A stretch of DNA of 64,000 bases from Protonemura montana (Eukaryota > Arthropoda > Insecta > Plecoptera > Nemouridae): contig OX387607.1 of assembly GCA_947568835.1 (NCBI GenBank), positions 3,658,001-3,722,000 on the forward strand. The letters are read 5' to 3'. The notes under the pieces are model-generated. The model was not told the DNA's origin and ran no database searches. It saw nothing but the letters and a program-made list of their open reading frames with translations. Of this stretch, positions 5,193 through 58,797 are shown piece after piece. How positions within the stretch are numbered: position 1 is the stretch's first letter; every line of letters starts with the position of its first letter. The position numbers and the translations under genes are program-made.

Positions 5193-6250
5193 GTTGACAT
5201 CTGAAGTTTTAAACTAGGTACCTAACCTCAGCTGAAGACTAGCTTGTGATCATCTTGATTAAAGAGATGTGCCATTCCCGCCACATCTCGTTGAGGCAAA
5301 GTGGGGAATTGCATTTTTGTATTAAACAAATATACCCAATGACAGACTACAATGTATCGTAAGGAAAATCTCGTCATGGAATAGTTTGGTTGAGTAAGAA
5401 ACAATAGGATGGATAATCAATCTCATCGATCATTGACAATTATCTTGTAGCCACAACCACTCATTAAGCTTGGAGAATATTTAAATTGAGCGCAAAGTAA
5501 TTATTTTCAATATAAATTATTTCTCCCAAATTAGATTTTCTATTGATATATAAATATCTAAAAAACTGACATCTCCTTCAAAACCCAGAAACCAACCAAC
5601 TTCCATCAACATCCGAGTCCCTAATGGACCAGCACGCAGCAGACTCCAGCCTCCACAACCTCGACGCAGTTTACACGTCTCCCGCCAAGCGCCACTAGTC
5701 ACGCATCTCGTCCAGCCACTAGCGTCATCTAGCAGCCAGCCTCCAACCAACCGACCATGTCCTCATCATCAAAGAGGAAATCCGATAAATTACAGCCAGC
5801 GAAAAAAACATTGTCCACATCGCCGGCGACTGTCAGCCCAGCGCAACGAGGTACACGTCGAGGCGACTACGGTTGTGGGCAGTTCGAGATAATATCCGCA
5901 AAGAAGGAAACAGGATCTGACTTTTCGATAAGCAATAACAATCCCTCAGAGTTTCTAGTGGATTGGACGAGGTCGGTTTGATTGTCAAGAATCCAGCGCA
6001 GTGTCAGTGTGTTTTTTGCTTGTTTTTATATCTCTCCGGTCTCTCCCATCTGCGGCGTGTGCGTGTGTTTCTTTTTGTTGTTTGTCGCTGAACCCTTTTT
6101 TTTCTACTAGTCTGCTCCAAGCCTTGGTGTGATATACCTGATCTCAGAACTTTCTCCACGGCTGGGCGTGATCCGGGTCGGATGTTTCTTACCGTGTTTA
6201 AATACCATCTATAGATCGTTCAATTAGAATTTTTGTAATTCGTTTAGAGA
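5193..6250. other. Upstream region of the adaptor gene
   Basis: This is the 5' flank of the SLP-76-like gene. A possible splice acceptor (CGTTTAG) lies four bases before the start ATG at 6251, so a non-coding first exon may lie in this stretch. A Ser/Lys-rich frame starting at 5757 would join out of phase with the SAM exon at its best donor (5853/5854). I do not call it coding. No promoter element can be identified with confidence. Confidence 0.35.
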
Positions 6251-6331
6251 ATGGCGGGAAAAAACAAATTCACACCTCTGCAGCAAATTCGTGGCTGGAC
6301 GTGTGAAGATGTCCAGAGGGCTCTGACAAAG
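6251..6331 (+). CDS. SLP-76-like exon 1: start and SAM helix 1
   Basis: Encodes MAGKNKFTPLQQIRGW and then CEDVQRALTK after one Thr. The GW..EDVQRAL pattern is the start of a SAM domain. It ends in phase 0 at AAAG|GTGACA. The ATG is preceded by a possible acceptor, so the 5'UTR may be spliced. Confidence 0.9.
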
Positions 6332-9300
6332 GTGACAGTCACTTTTAATTGCGTTGTTAATTGCTTTTGTACATACAGTTGTACAGAGAAATGATGCGCT
6401 AGTAAAATATAATTATATTTGTTTAGGTGTGGGTGTGTAGGATTCATCACCTGTTGCATTGATGTTAATGAATCAGGGAAATAAAATTAAAAAATTGATC
6501 TCGATGAGGAATATCATGCAAAATTTGTGATGGTTTTATTGGCTTATCTTCTCGTGTGCTAGAACGACTCAAAAGCGTATCTTAGATAGAGACAAATCTC
6601 GGTTTTCTGCTTCTGCCGATAAGACTTTTTTTGGCAATTTGATCAAACTACTTGCCTTAAAATCAGTTGCCCTTTTCCATAACCTTTTTTTTGTGTGTCT
6701 AGAATGACCTGCAGACATGCTGTGATGCTGTCGCCAAACGCAACATAGACGGCGAAGCATTACTGGTAATTATGTCTCTGTGGACTCGTACGAATTGAGT
6801 CACTAATTGCTCGATGCGTCACAATGCTAGTGCGTGTGACCTCACCGCGAACCCATTGTCTCGCTATCACGATGAAAATCAATATTGGGCCCACCACGTG
6901 CAGCCTGAAATAACATGGCAACCTATGCAAGGAATCGGTCGAGTGGGTAAAGAGACGCTGGAAAGACGGCCTTGGTGGTTGGTGGGTGTCAGTTGCCGAA
7001 TTGGGGAGTACAGAAGGTCGTCACGAACATCATTTTGATGTTTGCTCTTGGCTGTTTCAAGTTTTTGCTTTTTGATGATATTTAAATCGACCGCCGAATA
7101 GTTGTTTACCTGTTTCTGTTGGTGAATTAAAGGTTAATATCGTTCGATAATCAATGTCTTGATTTCAACCAATGATAGAACGACAGGACCTTTTTGAAAA
7201 CGAACTTACTGAAAGTATGATAGTTTCTAGACTCGTGTCTACTTGATTTATCCTTGGCACTAGTTTGAACAACAACTATTTGAACTGGGTTTTTGAATGC
7301 TAAGTAAAGGAGAACTAAATTTCCCGACGTTTCGTAACATGTACTAGTTATTAGAAAAACTATTAGAAACTATTGCTAAGGATAAATCAAGTAGACATGA
7401 GTCTAAAAACCATCATGTACTAGTCACTTCTTCAAGGACTGCTCTAACCCTTGAAGAAGTAACTAGTACATGTTACGAAACGTCGGGAAATTTAGTTGTC
7501 CTTTACTTAGCATTCAAAATCCATTTCAAATAGTTTTTGTTACAATCTGAAAGTACTTCATGTTTTTTTTTTTTTTTTTTTTTTTTTAAGTTTGTTCACC
7601 TAACGAATAGGGAGCAAAATAGGAATTCATTTTTGGTTGTTTTATGGGAATAACATCGTGCCTTTCCAAACTTCAAGCTATAAACACAGTAGGCTATGAG
7701 GTAATTCGCTCGTTCACCACTGGTTTTCCGGTGACATTCCTCATAAGTTATTTTAACTATTTATTTACGACTCTGGATAAACAATGACAATTAAAATAGA
7801 TCATCTCTCACTCGTTACACAAATTGTAATTGCAGAGACGATCGTCGTAGAGGTAATTGAGCCTTTTCATGGATCCTTTTTATTATTATATATTTTTTAA
7901 ATCGAACAAAGACATTCAGTCTTACCCTTATAGAGAGTAAAAAAGGCAAACATTTAATTTTAGAGTTGATGACGATAAGTTTTCTTTCCGGTGACGAAAT
8001 CACTGAAATCTTACCACTTCACGATAACGTCTCTGTGAGCGCTGCGGTGGCACAACCAGTGACACAAGATAAATTATATTTAATTATTGAGTACCTATAA
8101 GTGTAATTTTGTAAATTATTTGAATTTTTTTCAGAATTTGACCGAAGGCAAGCTTGTGTTGTGGAAAAATGATCTCAAACAAACTGAAATTCAGTAAGTT
8201 ACTTTACGTAATTGCTTTGATTAATTAACAATATAATGATATTTGTTTTGTTACCAGTTACTAATGCTTTCTTTTGATGGGTTTTTAGTCCTAAAAAGTA
8301 ATTCAACCCGACGTTTCGGTTGAGTTAGCTCTGGGTGAGACTGAATATGGCAGAGCTAACTGCCGAAACGTCGCGAGAAGAAATTTGAAGTACTAAGAAC
8401 CCATTAGAAAGAGAGACCGAAAAAAAACCCATAAATATCATTCAACAACGGCTCTGAAAACATTTAATGCACTTGTTAGAATTGAATTGTGTGAACAGAA
8501 TATGTCAAAAGGAAACGTAAATTCCATCAATTTCCTGCAAACACGGACAGAACACTAGCGTCGACTATCAACCACATTTCCTGTAGGATTGATTCTGTAC
8601 GAGTCATTGCGATGCTAAAAATGACTGCTTATCATATTATTTGCTTATTTCCACTTGAATGTACTGCATTAACAGAGAGTATGAGACAAGTATGAGCTAA
8701 TAATCTTGGCTCCGAGCATTTATTGTATAAAAATTGTCGGGAGGCTTACTGCCTTGGGAAGGTGATGGTATGACAACAGACGCTTTGGTACAGAGGCAAG
8801 TTTATGCCGATAGTGCCACACCATTTGGTCATAATCACGCCCGTGGTTTTTAAGGAAATGTGGTTAACTTAGTTACAGTTCGGCATTTTCCTGGCAAAGA
8901 TTTGAGTGTGATTTTGAATTTGGTTACCTGACTTTCCTCAACCGAATGACGATTTAATCCGTTTTTTCACGAAATCAGTAACGTGTTAGAAGGATAGTGG
9001 CAAAGAAAATTGTATTTTTGGGTGCCAAAGTCCACTCGATGCCGTGGCACTGGGTCAATCCGTCTCTGCCGAAATCCAATTTAAACGAGTCACAGAACGT
9101 TTGGCTCTGATTTCTTTTTAAGCTCTATTTCAAAGGAACCTACCATATTCTAAGGTCCTTAGGTCTTACACCGACCGGTAGCAAGCTGCTAAAACCAGGT
9201 AAACCAGGCACCTGGACAACTTGGTACTAATCAAAACACAACGAATCTAGATGACTTGATCCACTAAAACAGATTCACTTTTTCTTTCAGAAAGCTCTCT

Positions 9301-12300
9301 TCCTTTGTGGTGAACGTAAACTTTTATCCCGAGAAGTACTCGAGCAGCGCCGGTGGACTTCGCCAGGGGGGTAACGTCCCAGCGAAAACCTGGGGGCAGA
9401 ACGCAAACCAGTCGACGTCGTCGTCGTCCTTCGGCAGGTCGACGCCGACGCCTCCCAGTAAACCGACGCCGGGGTTGAGGAGCGCGGGCTCGTCAAACGG
9501 CTTCAACGCCCCGACCGCGCAGGCGACGAACAAATTTAGCAAACCAACTCCTCCAAATAATTTTAACAAACCTCCCCCAAACAATTTTAACAAACCGGCT
9601 CCCCCAAATAATTTTAACAAATCGGCTCCCCCAAATAATTTTAACAAACCTTCCCCAAACAATTTTACCAAACCAGCTCCCCCAAATAATTTTAACAAAC
9701 CTCCCCCAAACAATTTTAACAAACCGGCTCCCCCAAATAATTTTAACAAACCCAATCCACAAAATAATTTTAACAAACCTCCCCCAAATAATTTTAACAA
9801 ACCAACTCCTCCAAATAATTTTAACAAACCTCCCCCAAATAATTTTAACAAACCTCCCCCAAATAATTTTAACAAACCGGCTCCCCCAAACAATTTTAAC
9901 AAACCCAATCCACAAAATATTTTGAGAAAACAAAATCCCCCCTATATTGCAACAAAGAATGCAGCCAGCTCCAGCAGACTATATCCGACAGCCGGCGGTA
10001 CACGCTCAACGCCCCAGCAAAGTCTTCAAGTCGACCAAAGGGATCAACAGAACGAATATTTGGCAATGGAAGGAAAGTCGCCCGTGGCACCAAAAACTCC
10101 AGTTCTCGAGCCCACAAACAAATTCACTAGACCAGTACCTGAGCCTCCCCGAGAATCAGTCTACTCACCTCCAGCTTTGCTCCGGAGCGAGTACCCTATT
10201 TCCAACTACGACGAAGACGAGCAACCTGAGTACCACAACATTGACGAGACGACAAACACTGCTGAAGCATACCCTCCAGCAGACCCCGACAACTATCATT
10301 CGGATGCAGAAAGTTGGGGCACAGACTTTGACGACGCCGATGAAGAGGACATCGACTTTCCACCGGAAGAGTTATCGGCGAACAAATCGTCTCTCTTCAG
10401 AGACGAGGGGCCCTCTCTACCTCACCGACCTCCCAACAGAGAACCCGTGTTGCCGGCGCGGCCAACATTCCAGCCTCCATCAGCATTCCAGCCACCGTTA
10501 GCATTCCAGCCTCCGTCAGCATTCAAAGTCTCAAAAGCCTTTGACTATCCGCAGCCCCCAGCGGCGATGGACAACAACATGTTGAGCGGCCTGATAGGAG
10601 ACGACCAGCCTGAATACGCGGACGACGAGGAGTATTCTCTAATCGACGAGTTCAGTAACCTCCCGCCGCCAGCTCTGGTACCGAGGGAGTATCCGAGCAA
10701 ACCGGCGTCGATTCAAGTACCGGAGGCGATGGCGCCGAGGGTCCCGCACAGAGAGCCCGTTTTGATCTTGCCAAGGAATCTCCCCAGTCATTTCGGAGAG
10801 AGCAAGTTGCCTGACAGTCTTTCGCTGAAACCCCATCTGCCACGAAGGGAGCCGTACAAGCCACCTAAAGGACGGGAAGAGACCAACCCAGAGGCGTTTG
10901 ATGACTGCGAGTACGAGGTCATAGAACACCGGGAAGGGGACAATGATTACCTGGCTCCTACAGGCATGAAGCGTGCAGCGTCGGTAAGGAGCATCTAAAT
11001 CTTATTATTATTATCATTATTAAATCATTCAATATACTGTGGTGCTCTGTGTTCTTACCACTTAATCTGAAACGTTCTCTGCTCACCACTACTTTTTCTT
11101 GCATTTTGTACCGTATCTGTTAGAAGATATAAGGATCTTTCGCATGCATCCATCACAGCTAAATGTTCACATATTGTCAGAAGACCCTGACTAATTCGTC
11201 GTGTTCCCGCTAGACGGAGTCAGTGGGCAGTCCGAGTGCGCTCACCGTCAAGCTTCGCGAAGCTCTCCACGCTCGGAAAATATCGCTCACCACGACTGTG
11301 CGGCCCGAGATACCACCGATGCCGCACGAGTTCGGCCGAGGTAAGCGACTTAACTCACTCGCGGATGTTCTGTCATGCCGATCAGCTGGATACTGGGGGG
11401 TACAGAGGGGTAACTGCCACCTCTGGCCACTTGGATTATTTGACTAGCTGGTCATTTCAACTATTGGCCTCTCTCTTGCAGTCTAATGCTACAAATGGTA
11501 TCCCTATCATTTAACCAACAGGAAAGTAACAATTTAAATTATTATTTAGCTACCTTTCTTTCCTATTCTACTCCTTTCTCTCTCAAATGCTTGGATTCAC
11601 CCAAGTCTAAGCATACATACATAGACTTTGGTTAAAGTATTTTTCAAAACTTTGGTTTGTAAAACACGAGAAATACTATGCTCATCAATCATCGCGGTTC
11701 GAACTGGGACCAGAGTCAACTTTCCCTCTCCTACCCCCTCTTTAATTCGGTTTAGTCTACAGCAAGCTCTCGGTGAAGATCCTCTCGGCGTTAAAATCGG
11801 CAAAAGAAGTTATTTATAGTCTCAGGGTGGGGCATTTTCGTACTGTTCCTGTGTGTGAAAGATTAAATCTTCGTGGTTTTTTTGCGGCTATGAAATGATA
11901 ATTAAGCTATTAAGACTAACGTGTATCTACAAAAGCCAGTCCCAAGAAAGTTTGTCAACTTAAGACTCTTAACAGTGATTAAAAGTGGTAGCACCAGCTT
12001 GACTGTCGAGGACTGTAGCAATAGAACGCAGCTGTTGGCCAAAAAACAGATCGCAAAACAGATGTGGGATACCCAATACTCGACTTCCCTAATATCTCTC
12101 TTTGCCCCATTCTAGTTCTAGGGGGGTTACACTTGTGCTATGGGAGACCTAGTTATGTTTTTTCTACCCTCCTCGTGACAGGTCCCCGACTGGTTCGTCT
12201 TGCCGTTCATTCAGTGCATTCACTTGTTGACTAGGAAACGAATCTGATTGTTTAATCTCGTCGCTCGTTCAATGGAGATTTTAACAGATTTTCAAATATT

Positions 12301-15300
12301 CTTCGTCGATTTTCTTATCTAGACAATTAAACCGTCGTTATTTTTACACATTTTTAAATGGCGCATTGCATTGTTCGTTGATGTCAAGTAGCTAAACGTA
12401 ACGTAGCGTGTGATGTGAATACGACTTTGCGCTCCAAAACATTATTAGAAGACTAACGTTGCTTTCACATAGACACAAACGTGTTTCCGGTGCAAAAAAA
12501 CCTCGCCTGTGCTACCGAAAATGTTACCGCACATCGAAGAAGAGCCCAGCGTCACCTCCACCCGCTCAAAACCGGCCCCGAAGGTGTCATAACCAGTGCC
12601 CCAATCCCGTGATGCCCGCCCACCGACTCACGCTTGCACAGGTCAAGTGGTTCAATCAGCGAGTCAAGTGGCCGTCACGGGGCCCGTCGGACTAGGGGCA
12701 ATGAGTGCCTGTTTCTACCTCCGTGTAACCGGGTCCCTGCTTAGTAACCTGGCGTCGCGGGTCGGCTCTGAGATGGCCGATGTCGCCGTTGGGATCAGAA
12801 GGAAAGTGCTTTACACGATCAGGAGGATGCTGAATCGCTACGACGATGTGATGCCGGGAGACGACGAACATTGGGAGGATGCAGGTGATGTGATGTATTT
12901 CTTTGACTTTGTTGTATGAACAAGTTTATTTTGACGGTCTATGCCGTCTGGTCTTGTTCTTACTGGTAGCGTTTCTTGCTTTAAGATTGTGGGCAATCAG
13001 GGTTGTTTAGTAAACACTCTTCCCATCAGCAGCTACTCGAAAAATCCATTTCCAGGCCAACAAAGGCGTGCGGCGCAGACTTTTGGACGTCGATTTTTTC
13101 GTTTAAGTTACGAGAGGAAGTTCCTGTTAAGGGAAGTTGTAGTTATCGGTGATAATAGGGGCAGTTTAAGTAGTGGCAGTTAACGAAGTGGTTTATACGG
13201 TTTTCCGAGGGGAATGAAAGTGTAAGTGCACTTTATTTGATTGCTATCGGCGAAAATAACTGAAAGAGTTTCTAACGAAAGTCTTCTTTATTCTGGGAAA
13301 CAATAAACTTTTTGAGGCGGATTTATTGATTTTTTTTCTAAGGCCAAGCAGCTTAGTTCACAAGTATACGCATGTCGTCCTTAGTTTGTCACTAGGTTTT
13401 ATATTTTTATTTCCCAAATAAAAAACACATGGTTCAGTTTATTGTGAACGTCTTAGCAAGGCAAACCTTTATTAATGTTTACGACGTTTTACAAAAGTGC
13501 TACACCATTTGTTCATCGGCTTGACAGGTAGGTATGTCTTTCCATTTTTCATTCAGTTTAATTTTATTTAAAAGTCAGCTGTAATGCCCTCCCATCCTAT
13601 TTCCAGCCTGATATCTTAAGTCGACTGCACACTTCTTTGTGTTCACCGCTTTTAAAGCTTGTAACCTCCCAGCTCGAAGTCTCCCAGGAAGCAGAATACC
13701 AACCTATTTCTTGTCTCTCCTCGAATTCTACACCAGTCTTTCAGTAGCATGGATAGACCAGCCATCGTTCTTACAACGTTCCAACAAACTGCGACCATCA
13801 GGCGAACCTGCTCAGTCAACAATGCTGCTCGCCGCACGCTTTTCAACAGTTTTCCCCCAGCGCCGAAGAAAATGTCGTTTCTCTTTTCCAGTAAGTCGAC
13901 GTCTTGGAACGATTGGCTGCTTTCTTTTCAGTGTCAAGTGGTCGTTAGTGTTTTTATTTTGACAAAGTAAATTATTGGCGAGTTTTTTTGTTGTTGTTCG
14001 TCTTGCGTCAAACTGTTTTGTTCGAGCGCCGAGCGCAACTTGGCAAATGTGTTTCGGTTCCGTGAACATGTTGCCGACGTTTCTTCCCACCAAGAGGGCA
14101 ACTGCAACGGGATCCTGTTTGGAAAATGCCTCGGAAGTTTTTACTCCGCCGAACGTTCGCCAGTTATCGTTCGGTGGTGGTGCGGCTAAGTGACACGTTC
14201 TTGCAGTCTGTCTACTTTGCGTCGGTGATTCATTAGTTTTTGATCAAAAGGAATTTATTTGAAATTATTTGTGTAGAATGTTCTCAACTGTGGATTCAAG
14301 ATTCGGAAGATCTAAGCCAAACATTCCTTGCTTTCGGATAAGTAATTAATTAGTCATTTACTTAGATCAAAGGTGCTTCGATTTTCGTTTCTATCACAGA
14401 GATTTCCTCGATTTTCTTTGATTACCATTGAATTCAATTAAAAGCATGACATGTTATGTATTACCTATCGCGTAAAATATTGCAGTGGCTTTCAAGCCAT
14501 TACTTTTTCGAACCATGTGACTGTTAGGGGCGCCAATGGCGTTAAGTATGAAGTGCGGGAATATTCAGCCTGCTATTTAACCGACTTTTACATACATTCA
14601 CCGTCCGAACTTGACGGAGACAACCAACGTCCAAGGACAGATATTTTAAGCACAATACTTTTTGGAATCATTCCGGGAAAGATTCGCGTCTTTCTGCCCC
14701 TGCAAGTCTAATGCGATGACCGTCACCATTCAACATCAACAAACTAGCGTTTAAATCCCACTCAGACCATTCACTGCCTTTCTCATATAAATCAAGCTTA
14801 TTTTTCTCCTCCTGTTTCTTCTAGCCAAGACACCTACCCTCGAAAGCAAGCCGTTCCCGAAGCCTCCACCCGTGGACCGGCCGTTCTCTAACGGTCAGCC
14901 CCAGAGACCGTTGCCGCCTCCTCCAGAGCCCGAAAGACGACCGTCGACAGGAACTGGCCCTCAGAATCTGAAGACCAAGCAGTGGTACCACGACGTTGAC
15001 AGAAGACGCGGCGAAGAAATGCTTAAATACGGTGAGGTTTCATGGGCAGTACGGGGTCGCAGATCTTTGTCTTCGAATGCGTTCAGTTTTTCACGACATA
15101 AGAGAGCTTGTGGCAACCTTGCAAGAACAGGGACATTTTCTCTTGACATCAAATCGAAAAATCACCGATTGACTTAAAATATCTTCATAATTATTAATGT
15201 TTGTTTTTTTGCCAATCAACAATATTGTCCATGCGCAGTGGCAGAACGAATGGACGTAGGCGGCAATGCTCTCACTGCAACAAGCGCCATAGCCTGTCCT

Positions 15301-16712
15301 ATAACTGCGAGGTTTTTTCAGGTGAAAATGGCTCGTTTCTCCTGCGACCCTCGGCCCGAACGGCAAACCCCTTGACGCTGACCCTCTGGTACGATAATCG
15401 TATCTACAACATTGGTGTTCGACTTCGTGAAGACCAGCGCTATGCTCTCGGCACGGAGAAGGCCATGGAACGGGTAAGGCAGAATTCTATCAGGTTTTGC
15501 GCTGTAATTACCGATGACAAGTAGAAGTGTTTTGATTTAATGATGGCCTGGCGGTCGTCAGCAAAACTATCCTATCCTATAGCATCTCATCGAAATGGGC
15601 ATTGAATTTCGGTGAACAAAATGTCCACACTTTGGAAGAAATAAATGTGTTGCCAACTTGCAGTTCATGAACAATGGCAAGCATTTTTTTTTTGTAAACA
15701 TGAATTAAGTTTCAAAAATACGAAAAAAAAAGTTGAAAAGTGTCGATGTTGTGTAAGAAGTGCTTGCAAATAGTGAGCCATTTGAGGATAATATTGCAGT
15801 AGTTAAAAGTCCTTGGTTCATGTCCTTTATAATGCTTGTGTCCACTAGAGTGATGTCTTGGCAGAAATCTTGTCTTTAAATAGTTTCTTATCAGTGTTTT
15901 AATGGGGTTTGGATTGCTATAAAAACAAAGAGCTTCAAACTATTTGAGACTCCCAGCGAAAACATTTTTCTCTTCCTTGGAAACTGTAGAGTCATCACAG
16001 TATAATGTTTACTTCTTGGAAATTATCTAGAGACGTCGATAATGTGACGGCAATGAACATCCTAGACCTAGCCTAGAAGCCAGAAGAATAGGAGATAAAG
16101 TCAAACAACTCTACCAGCACAATTTCTCTGGTTTTCATTCACTTATGTTGTCGAGTGATTGATTTGCATAAGTTTAGAAAGGAAACTGATCTAGACTAAA
16201 AAATGGGCGACTGAACCGAGATAACCCGGGACCTACCAATTACCGGTTGAGTGCTCTTCTAACTAAGCTTCAGTCACGTAGATTCGAGCTTTGCAGGATG
16301 GAATTAGGATCCCAGCAAGGGTGAAGAGGCCAGGGTGACTCGTAGGTGGACGAATACTTAGCACCCCAGGGATGCTAATTCAACTGCCAAATTTACAGCC
16401 TGGGCTGTCACCTTTCCGTATGTCCCCCTGGGAAAGATAGACAGTCCAAGAAAGCAAAGCTTCAACTCTGTAACCCTGCAAAGCTTAGAAAAGTAGATAT
16501 TTTAGAGCATACTCTATTTAGTCTAATTTAAACAGATCGCAACCAATTTCTCAACTAACAATGTTTACATCTTTGTCATGCAGAGTTTCGGGTCAGTTGA
16601 CGAACTGGTGACTTTCTACCAGAGAGAGTCACTGATGCTGTTCTCTGGCGGCGAGAAGTCGGGATCGACGATGCTGACGGAGACTCCTGGTCGGCGATAT
16701 ATGTCGCACTAG
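6251..16712 (+). CDS. SLP-76/BLNK-family adaptor (SAM + Pro-rich + SH2), 8 exons
   Basis: This is a cytosolic scaffold of the SLP-76 (LCP2)/BLNK/CLNK family. Known members lie downstream of Syk/ZAP-70-type kinases and recruit SH2/SH3 proteins such as Grb2, Vav, Nck and PLC-gamma. Joined exons: 6251-6331, 6703-6765, 8135-8193, 9291-10983, 11214-11340, 14825-15031, 15322-15473, 16584-16712. All junctions are GT-AG, phases close, and the product is 836 residues (human SLP-76 is about 530). The SAM domain is at about 15-78 (NIDGEALLNLTEG resembles HIDGARFLNLTEN of SLP-76). The start ATG is 15 codons before the first SAM Trp, as in human SLP-76. A repeat of PPNNFNKP units is at about 152-275. Tyrosine motifs include YSPP359, YHNI382 (Grb2-type YxN), YPQP487, YKPP590 and YLAP621. 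The SH2 domain is at about 728-832 (WYHDVDRR, FLLRPS with the phosphotyrosine-binding Arg752, RIYNIGVRL, RYALGTEK, SFGSVDELVTFYQ). Family membership is firm; which vertebrate paralogue is closest is not decided. Confidence 0.92.
6703..6765 (+). CDS. SLP-76-like exon 2: SAM core
   Basis: Sixty-three bases, phase 0 to 0, between TGTCTAG and GTAATT. Encodes a segment ending in KRNIDGEALL, the most conserved SAM signature in this family. Confidence 0.9.
7217..7543. repeat. Foldback repeat F1, copy 1
   Basis: The arms carry AACTATTTGAACTGGG, GAATGCTAAGTAAAGGA, AACTAAATTTCCCGACG and TTTCGTAACATGTACTAG, and the reverse complement of most of these returns on the right side (TACGAAACGTCGGGAAATT). The inner part forms a further hairpin, CTTCTTCAAGG/CCTTGAAGAAG. 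This is a long inverted repeat of MITE or foldback type with no coding. It lies in the second intron of the adaptor gene. Confidence 0.8.
7563..7587. repeat. Poly-T tract
   Basis: About 25 consecutive T, just after foldback copy 1. It may be the A-tail of an inverted insertion. Confidence 0.8.
8135..8193 (+). CDS. SLP-76-like exon 3: end of SAM domain
   Basis: Begins NLTEGKLVLWKNDLKQTEI after TTTTTTTCAG. It ends two bases into a codon at CA|GTAAGT. The reading continues in exon 4 as QKLSSFV, the last SAM helix. Confidence 0.88.
8267..8415. repeat. Foldback repeat F2
   Basis: The ends are inverted copies (TGATGGGTTTTTAGT and ACTAAGAACCCATTAG). Each arm carries CGACGTTTCGG next to AGTTAGCTCTG. 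The core CGACGTTTCG is shared with family F1, but the arms are different. It lies in the intron after SAM exon 3. Confidence 0.7.
9291..10983 (+). CDS. SLP-76-like exon 4: Pro-rich, tyrosine-motif linker
   Basis: A single 1693-base exon that encodes most of the linker. In order it has the SAM tail, a Ser/Thr-Pro segment, 14 NNF-containing repeat units, an acidic tyrosine-rich part (YDEDEQPEYHNIDE, EYADDEEYSLID), three FQPP/AFQPP units, and three REPV/REPY Pro-rich motifs (NREPVLPARP, HREPVLILPR, RREPYKPPK) that could bind SH3 domains. It ends with CEYEVI and NDYLAP. The donor is TCG|GTAAGG. Reading through the donor would add RSI-type residues and a stop at 10996-10998. Confidence 0.9.
9538..9918 (+). 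repeat. In-frame tandem repeat, PPNNFNKP units
   Basis: Fourteen units of 8-9 codons with the pattern (A/T/P)PPNNFNKP, plus a last decayed NPQNIL unit. Two unit types, PPPNNFNKP and APPNNFNKP, tend to alternate. Pure AT cores (AATAATTTTAACAAA) are joined to C-runs, so the array is probably prone to slippage and length change. Confidence 0.95.
11214..11340 (+). CDS. SLP-76-like exon 5
   Basis: Encodes TESVGSPSALTVKLREAL, then a short basic segment and PEIPPMPHEFGR, and ends in phase 1 at CGAG|GTAAGC. The acceptor is CCCGCTAG. This linker segment has no domain I recognise, but the exon is GC-richer than its introns and keeps frame between exons 4 and 6. Confidence 0.8.
12642..12884 (+). CDS. 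Candidate in-frame cassette exon of the SLP-76-like gene
   Basis: A GC-rich open segment inside intron 5, flanked by a good acceptor (ACGCTTGCACAG) and a donor (GCAG|GTGATG). It is 243 bases, phase 1 to 1, so it could be included between exons 5 and 6 without a frameshift, adding 81 residues. The product includes LGAMSACFYLRVTGSLLSNL and VGIRRKVLYTIRRMLNRYDD, an amphipathic, partly hydrophobic stretch, followed by an acidic DDEHWEDA. I recognise no domain. It could instead be a chance open frame or part of a nested gene. Confidence 0.4.
14825..15031 (+). CDS. SLP-76-like exon 6: Pro-rich and start of SH2
   Basis: Encodes KTPTLESKPFPKPPPVDRPF, then a PLPPPPEPERR SH3-type motif, then KQWYHDVDRRRGEEMLKY, which is SH2 strand A and helix A. 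Starts after TTCTTCTAG; ends in phase 1 at TACG|GTGAGG. Confidence 0.92.
15322..15473 (+). CDS. SLP-76-like exon 7: SH2 phosphotyrosine pocket
   Basis: Encodes ENGSFLLRPSARTANPLTLT, WYDNRIYNIGVRL and RYALGTEKAMER. FLLRPS is the family's FLVRES motif, with the Arg that binds phosphotyrosine. The YNI.VR pattern matches SLP-76/BLNK/CLNK SH2 domains more than other SH2 families. Phase 0 donor CGG|GTAAGG. Confidence 0.95.
16206..16277 (-). pseudogene. tRNA-like pseudogene
   Basis: On the minus strand the ends pair (GTGACTG with CAGTCGC). A D-arm-like GCTTAGTTAGAAGAGC and a decayed T-arm (GGGTTATCTC, where GGTTCRANYC is expected) follow, and a run of six T comes right after the 3' end. The total is 72 bases, a tRNA's length. 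The T-loop is shortened and the anticodon loop lacks U33, so it is unlikely to be functional. It could be a tRNA relic or a tRNA-derived SINE head without body. It lies in the last intron of the adaptor gene. Confidence 0.45.
16584..16712 (+). CDS. SLP-76-like exon 8: end of SH2 and stop
   Basis: Begins SFGSVDELVTFYQRESLMLF, which is the SH2 helix B and last strands, and ends ETPGRRYMSH followed by TAG. There is almost no sequence after the SH2 domain, as in vertebrate SLP-76 and BLNK. Confidence 0.92.
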   Translation, partial: SFGSVDELVTFYQRESLMLFSGGEKSGSTMLTETPGRRYMSH

Positions 16713-18194: not shown

Positions 18195-58637
<40,443 letters not shown>

Positions 58638-58640
58638 TTA

Positions 58641-58797
<157 letters not shown>

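Follow-up and report, generated by a model that had tools for sequence, protein, structure and literature searches.

A probable SLP-76/BLNK-type adaptor gene in an arthropod genome, with candidate Shark-type and Draper-like partners

Introduction

SLP-76 (LCP2) is an adaptor in which a SAM domain, a linker and an SH2 domain follow one another in that order, and a Gads-type RxxK site is special to it. BLNK (SLP-65), unlike the adaptor described here, has no typical SAM domain. The phosphatase SHIP2 carries the two domains in the opposite order, with an N-terminal SH2 domain, the phosphatase domain and a C-terminal SAM domain. The kinases Syk and ZAP-70 favour acidic residues before their target tyrosines, and in Drosophila the kinase Shark acts within the Draper cascade.

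In mammals, ZAP-70 phosphorylates SLP-76, which acts together with Gads, Itk, PLC-gamma1, VAV1 and NCK (PMC5431462). Drosophila Draper signals via a Src-family cascade (PMC5303877). The arrangement SH2–ankyrin–SH2–kinase is that of Shark (HTK16) and is described as unique to invertebrates, in which a separate Syk-like gene also occurs (PMC10253181).

Invertebrate relatives of SLP-76 and BLNK have likewise been reported. A 2017 study cloned and tested the amphioxus SLP-76, bbslp76, which has the arrangement SAM-WW-PRR-SH2 and binds the Gads and Itk of amphioxus (PMC5431462). A BLNK-like transcript of the sea star Patiria miniata (XP_038070561) was reported in 2024, with its SAM and SH2 parts read in two frames of a single transcript, of which the SH2 region was amplified by RT-PCR (PMC11593052). 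A search of the open-access literature, covering titles and abstract openings, found no SLP-76/BLNK from an arthropod or other protostome, though annotated protostome entries may well exist. The gene described below is thus a pancrustacean gene of a known family, of which invertebrate members have already been published for amphioxus and sea star.

The gene and its protein

Within the window, meaning the whole 64,000-nucleotide stretch of DNA that was analysed, one gene on the forward strand is predicted to encode an adaptor of the SLP-76/BLNK type. The eight-exon model put forward in the original prediction was reproduced, with the following features:

6251..16712 (+): whole gene, predicted SLP-76/BLNK-type adaptor of 836 aa from 8 coding exons
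6251..6331 (+): exon 1, carrying the start codon and the opening portion of SAM (aa 1-27)
6703..6765 (+): exon 2, central portion of SAM (aa 28-48)
8135..8193 (+): exon 3, closing portion of the SAM-like region (aa 49-68)
9291..10983 (+): exon 4, the largest; linker with Pro-rich and Tyr/acid-rich sequence, open for about 564 codons
9535..9906 (+): tandem repeat of 24/27 bp, in frame, with NNFNKP-type units, inside the exon 4 linker
11214..11340 (+): exon 5, linker
14825..15031 (+): exon 6, Pro-rich end of the linker and start of SH2
15322..15473 (+): exon 7, SH2 core with FLLR (Arg752)
16584..16712 (+): exon 8, C-terminal part of SH2 and stop codon

When the exons are joined as predicted, the phase is continuous through 836 codons and a stop, and all seven introns are bounded by GT-AG. 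Two codons before the ATG stands an in-frame TAG. The linker repeat consists of 14 overlapping copies in 24/27-bp steps, and the length of the array may possibly differ between individuals. Upstream of the gene, a short open frame beginning with ATG (5757-5981, +) stops 269 bp before the adaptor start and has no Pfam match; it may belong to a gene upstream, represent a 5ʹ exon or have arisen by chance.

All three parts foreseen for the protein, namely SAM, a Tyr/Pro linker and SH2, are present in this single model. The SH2 domain is clear (Pfam, residues 728-806, E 2e-9), and its arginine is intact: R752 occupies the position of the SH2 phosphotyrosine Arg and presumably binds phosphotyrosine. 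The SAM signature, which had been called conserved as well, proved weak and by itself is not diagnostic; SAM_1 scores 27.1 bits against a cut-off of 23 (E 5.5e-6) when the first 90 aa only are scanned but 21.9 bits, just below the cut-off, on the full-length protein. The last third of the SAM domain is divergent, as the Pfam match ends at aa 53-54. Nothing besides SH2 and SAM exceeded the cut-off in the Pfam scan of the protein. Single-sequence AlphaFold2 models (mean pLDDT 47.8 for SAM and 57.5 for SH2) were too poor for use; a Foldseek search with the SH2 model gave 409 matches, none of them at E≤0.001.

The linker contains eighteen tyrosines. Four YxxP motifs (at 359, 487, 590 and 621) and a Grb2-type YHNI (at 382) are present just as first noted, but they lend the family assignment no support and were dropped as evidence for it, their counts being at chance level in shuffled linkers. 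Four YxxP compare with a mean of 3.5 in shuffles of the linker (p 0.47) and of 3.0 when the repeat is left out (p 0.35); in four block shuffles p was 0.17-0.34, and the expectation over all shuffles ranged from 2.3 to 3.5. The single YxN is likewise at chance level, and YxxL-type motifs are not in excess in the shuffles (p 0.11, 0.21). Acidic residues are enriched before the tyrosines: 23 were observed at positions -4 to -1, a number reached in at most 1/3000 shuffles, with expectations of 7.8 for the whole linker, 9.7 without the repeat and 9.6-12.6 in four block shuffles. Tyrosines with at least two acidic neighbours are weakly enriched (7 against 3.1, p 0.02; without the repeat 7 against 4.3, p 0.11). 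SH3-type proline motifs are present at four to five times expectation outside the repeat, where [RK]xxPxxP occurs 6 times and PxxPx[RK] 7 times against 1.5 expected for each (p 0.0007 and 0.001). Over the whole linker the expectation is 2.7 each (p 0.044 and 0.016), and the excess is about 2.3-2.6 times. A motif search of the adaptor found no Gads-type RxxK site.

Family of the adaptor

Membership in the SLP-76/BLNK family, to be checked by SH2 searches and phylogeny, was supported by both. Among the best 60 of 192 distinct sequences with solved structures matched at E≤10, the SH2 domain of the adaptor is closest to BLNK (2eo6; E 9.5e-14, 54.6 bits), and the runner-up is SHIP2 (E 3.7e-9, 39.8 bits); no LCP2 SH2 is among these 60. 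When the BLNK SH2 was used to search the genome, exon 7 of the adaptor ranked first of 9 matches at E≤10 (E 8e-4), followed by a locus that reads as RasGAP-type (E 0.067). Searched against its own genome, the adaptor SH2 gave as its best match beyond its own three SH2 exons an Abl-type locus, also named by reading (E 7.7e-4), and this SH2 search found no second close copy of the adaptor.

In a first SH2 tree of 30 rows, made up of the adaptor, six PDB rows and 23 rows from the genome itself, many consisting of one exon, the adaptor paired with BLNK (support 97/87). Three control pairs were recovered in this tree, Abl with ABL1 and the N and C SH2s of RasGAP with the two of RASA1; 7 of its 27 inner branches were starred, and the deeper order was without resolution. 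For a second tree three rows were added and 16 of the resulting 33, all shorter than 75 aa, were dropped; in the 17 rows kept, the pair returned with support of 99/98. The second tree cannot show the control pairs, since the dropped rows include Abl and RasGAP of the genome itself. Grouping of the SH2 domain with another family, named beforehand as one part of the refuting outcome, was not seen in either tree. The AU test disfavoured placing the adaptor with SHIP (p 0.038), PLC-gamma N (0.045), Shark C (0.005) or Nck (0.006), four groupings that were picked after the first tree and of which SHIP and PLC-gamma N were disfavoured narrowly. With BLNK as the sole SLP-family SH2 reference, the tree cannot place the adaptor nearer to SLP-76, BLNK or CLNK, and the natural reading is that it is a co-orthologue of all three together.

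The proposed comparison of the SAM domain with LCP2 gave a mixed answer. The LCP2 SAM (2eap) is alignable, with 34% identity over 44 aa, but it ranks third of 23 matches (E 0.0059), behind tir-1 (3.9e-5) and Sfmbt (0.0022), and a 60-aa piece of it found no match in the genome, where the SAM exons of the adaptor are short. The same piece matched nothing better than E 0.015 among other solved SAMs. Because tir-1 and Sfmbt outscore LCP2, the similarity is low and the back-search came up empty, the SAM domain is compatible with common descent without proving it. The common SAM–linker–SH2 order adds weight to shared descent. Taking this order together with the best match of the SH2 domain, the reverse best match and the trees, the adaptor very probably belongs to the SLP-76/BLNK family.

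Compared with its described relatives, the adaptor has the C-terminal SH2 domain in common with BLNK (2eo6), which is both its best match and its sister in the trees. It shares the SAM-linker-SH2 order with SLP-76 but differs in lacking the RxxK site and in having YxxP motifs not above chance. SHIP2 has the opposite order, the adaptor shows no phosphatase in the Pfam scan, and the AU value given above speaks against a grouping with SHIP1/2. Amphioxus bbslp76, also from an invertebrate, shares SAM, PRR and SH2 and has a WW domain following SAM (PMC5431462); the adaptor has no Pfam WW match and instead carries a tandem-repeat array in its linker. The Patiria miniata protein, from a deuterostome that is not a chordate, shares SAM, a low-complexity middle and SH2 (PMC11593052).

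Two other accounts of the gene deserve weighing. An SH2 adaptor of some other origin might have gained its SAM domain independently, as the low similarity to the LCP2 SAM and the higher scores of other SAM families would allow; SHIP2 is the second-best SH2 match, and a SHIP grouping was disfavoured by a narrow margin. This origin is nevertheless improbable, given the well-supported clade with BLNK in both trees and a domain order that is the same as in SLP-76. It is still less probable, and indeed very unlikely, that the model wrongly merges two adjoining genes or a gene fragment: intron 5 spans about 3.5 kb, the SAM match covers part of its profile and the joins are predicted, yet seven GT-AG junctions are in phase and no stop interrupts the 836 codons.

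Candidate partners and a proposed role

A Syk/Shark kinase and a Draper-like ITAM receptor had been suggested as the partners to look for, and candidates of both are found in the genome. An SH2 census of the genome gave 35 matches at 26 places, with family names at most places resting on a reading of the translations. The adaptor is absent from the 35 matches because its SH2 domain spans three exons, and the census is thus a lower bound. Genes of the Nck, PLC-gamma, Tec/Btk, Grb2, Src42A, Csk and Abl types are present by reading; no Vav was identified in this general SH2 census. One further locus (L046) matches Pfam SH2_2 (E 7.4e-82), and we take it to be SPT6-type.

The candidate kinase lies at a locus (L025) that carries an SH2 domain, ankyrin repeats, a second SH2 domain and a tyrosine kinase domain, in that order. 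Among the single-stretch PDB matches in the best 60 of 776, its kinase exon is nearest to SYK, 1.5 bits over ErbB-4; with so small a lead, the name Shark rests on the domain order. The top PDB match of this exon, 9p9u (EGFR), was set aside, its score being raised by two stretches of one chain. No separate Syk-like gene was identified in the genome. Just upstream (L025:796-3032), open frames read as Frizzled-like cysteine-rich and LDL-receptor-A-like.

A search of the genome for EMI domains hit one place. It is followed, on the same strand, by EGF-like repeats, with Pfam scores partly above and partly below cut-offs, and the locus further carries, by reading, a membrane span, an NPVY motif and the ITAM-like YHSI-x10-YDEI. 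These features stand in separate open frames scattered along about 17 kb, and a pattern served to choose the ITAM-like motif. We take the combination of EMI, EGF-like repeats, membrane span and NPVY/ITAM-like motifs to be the make-up of Draper/MEGF10, and the locus is likely to hold exons of a candidate Draper/MEGF10-like receptor with an ITAM-like motif.

Judged by its sequence, the adaptor is most likely a cytoplasmic scaffold, homologous to the ancestor from which SLP-76, BLNK and CLNK derive, and the only copy found in the genome. Because Draper uses a Src cascade and ZAP-70 phosphorylates mammalian SLP-76, we infer that a scaffold downstream of Shark is the simplest model. A Draper/MEGF10-type ITAM receptor would be phosphorylated by a Src kinase and would then recruit Shark, a Syk-family kinase, which would phosphorylate tyrosines in the acidic linker of the adaptor. 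The resulting phosphotyrosines could dock the SH2 proteins Nck, PLC-gamma, Tec/Btk and Grb2, while Pro-rich stretches of the linker would hold SH3 proteins. The C-terminal SH2 domain would connect this assembly with a further phosphoprotein, and protein contacts would be made by the SAM domain. In this scheme every interaction, the order of events and the cell type are conjectural, and we give the Shark-linked role about an even chance; that family membership and this role both hold is, in our judgement, evenly balanced as well.

The chief competing account, a real possibility that falls somewhat short of even, keeps the adaptor as a true SLP-76/BLNK homologue but has it act below tyrosine kinases of the receptor or Src type and PLC-gamma, for example in egg activation or development, without Shark or a Draper-like receptor. 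The BLNK-like transcript of the sea star came from mature eggs (PMC11593052), and Src-family kinases and PLC-gamma are reported to contribute to the calcium rise in eggs. Src42A, Abl, Csk, PLC-gamma and Tec/Btk type genes, all named by reading, would fit such a role. The acidic bias before the linker tyrosines, however, fits substrates of Syk-family kinases, and the genome does contain a kinase of the Shark type and a receptor with an ITAM-like motif; both points favour the Shark-linked role.

Age of the adaptor

The idea of a Syk-family adaptor pathway older than antigen receptors fits the present findings, but it is not new, and the pathway is a reconstruction in this genome. A relay older than lymphocytes would agree with the presence of the adaptor and several likely partners in an arthropod. 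Insects such as Drosophila are not known to have the adaptor. Tentatively, and with rather less than even confidence, we suggest that a SAM-linker-SH2 adaptor dates to the protostome-deuterostome ancestor and served Draper/Shark-type ITAM engulfment, that lymphocyte receptors took the module over, and that insects such as Drosophila dispensed with it. That one arthropod carries the adaptor together with a candidate kinase of the Shark type and a receptor resembling Draper makes a pre-lymphocyte role testable in an animal without antigen receptors. In the amphioxus report, SAM was said not to have emerged in slp76 until amphioxus, to the knowledge of its authors (PMC5431462); the SAM domain of the adaptor and the sea star SAM-SH2 protein speak against that view.

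Other features of the window and genome

Elsewhere in the window, a frame at 58344-58637 (-) matches Nanchung (E 1.8e-35), an arthropod channel. A Nanchung-type TRPV channel gene probably occupies 49845-58637 (-), with an ankyrin frame at 49845-50207 as part of it. Tandem repeats at 50140-50542 (104 bp x3.8) and 58521-58796 (129 bp x2.1) overlap these frames and look as if they were duplicated exon edges. A 637-aa open frame at 22611-24521 (+) has a weak match to the hAT transposase dimerisation domain (E 0.0036), below the cut-off.

In a 15.9-kb mitochondrial contig, trnL2 lies between cox1 and cox2, a position that marks Pancrustacea, and the order is otherwise that usual in insects and many crustaceans. 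This gene order and the Nanchung match near the adaptor both point to a pancrustacean genome. A nuclear contig (C4:5760925-5762262) holds a cox1 copy that scores the same as the mitochondrial contig (C34) and is either a recent nuclear insertion or an assembly error.
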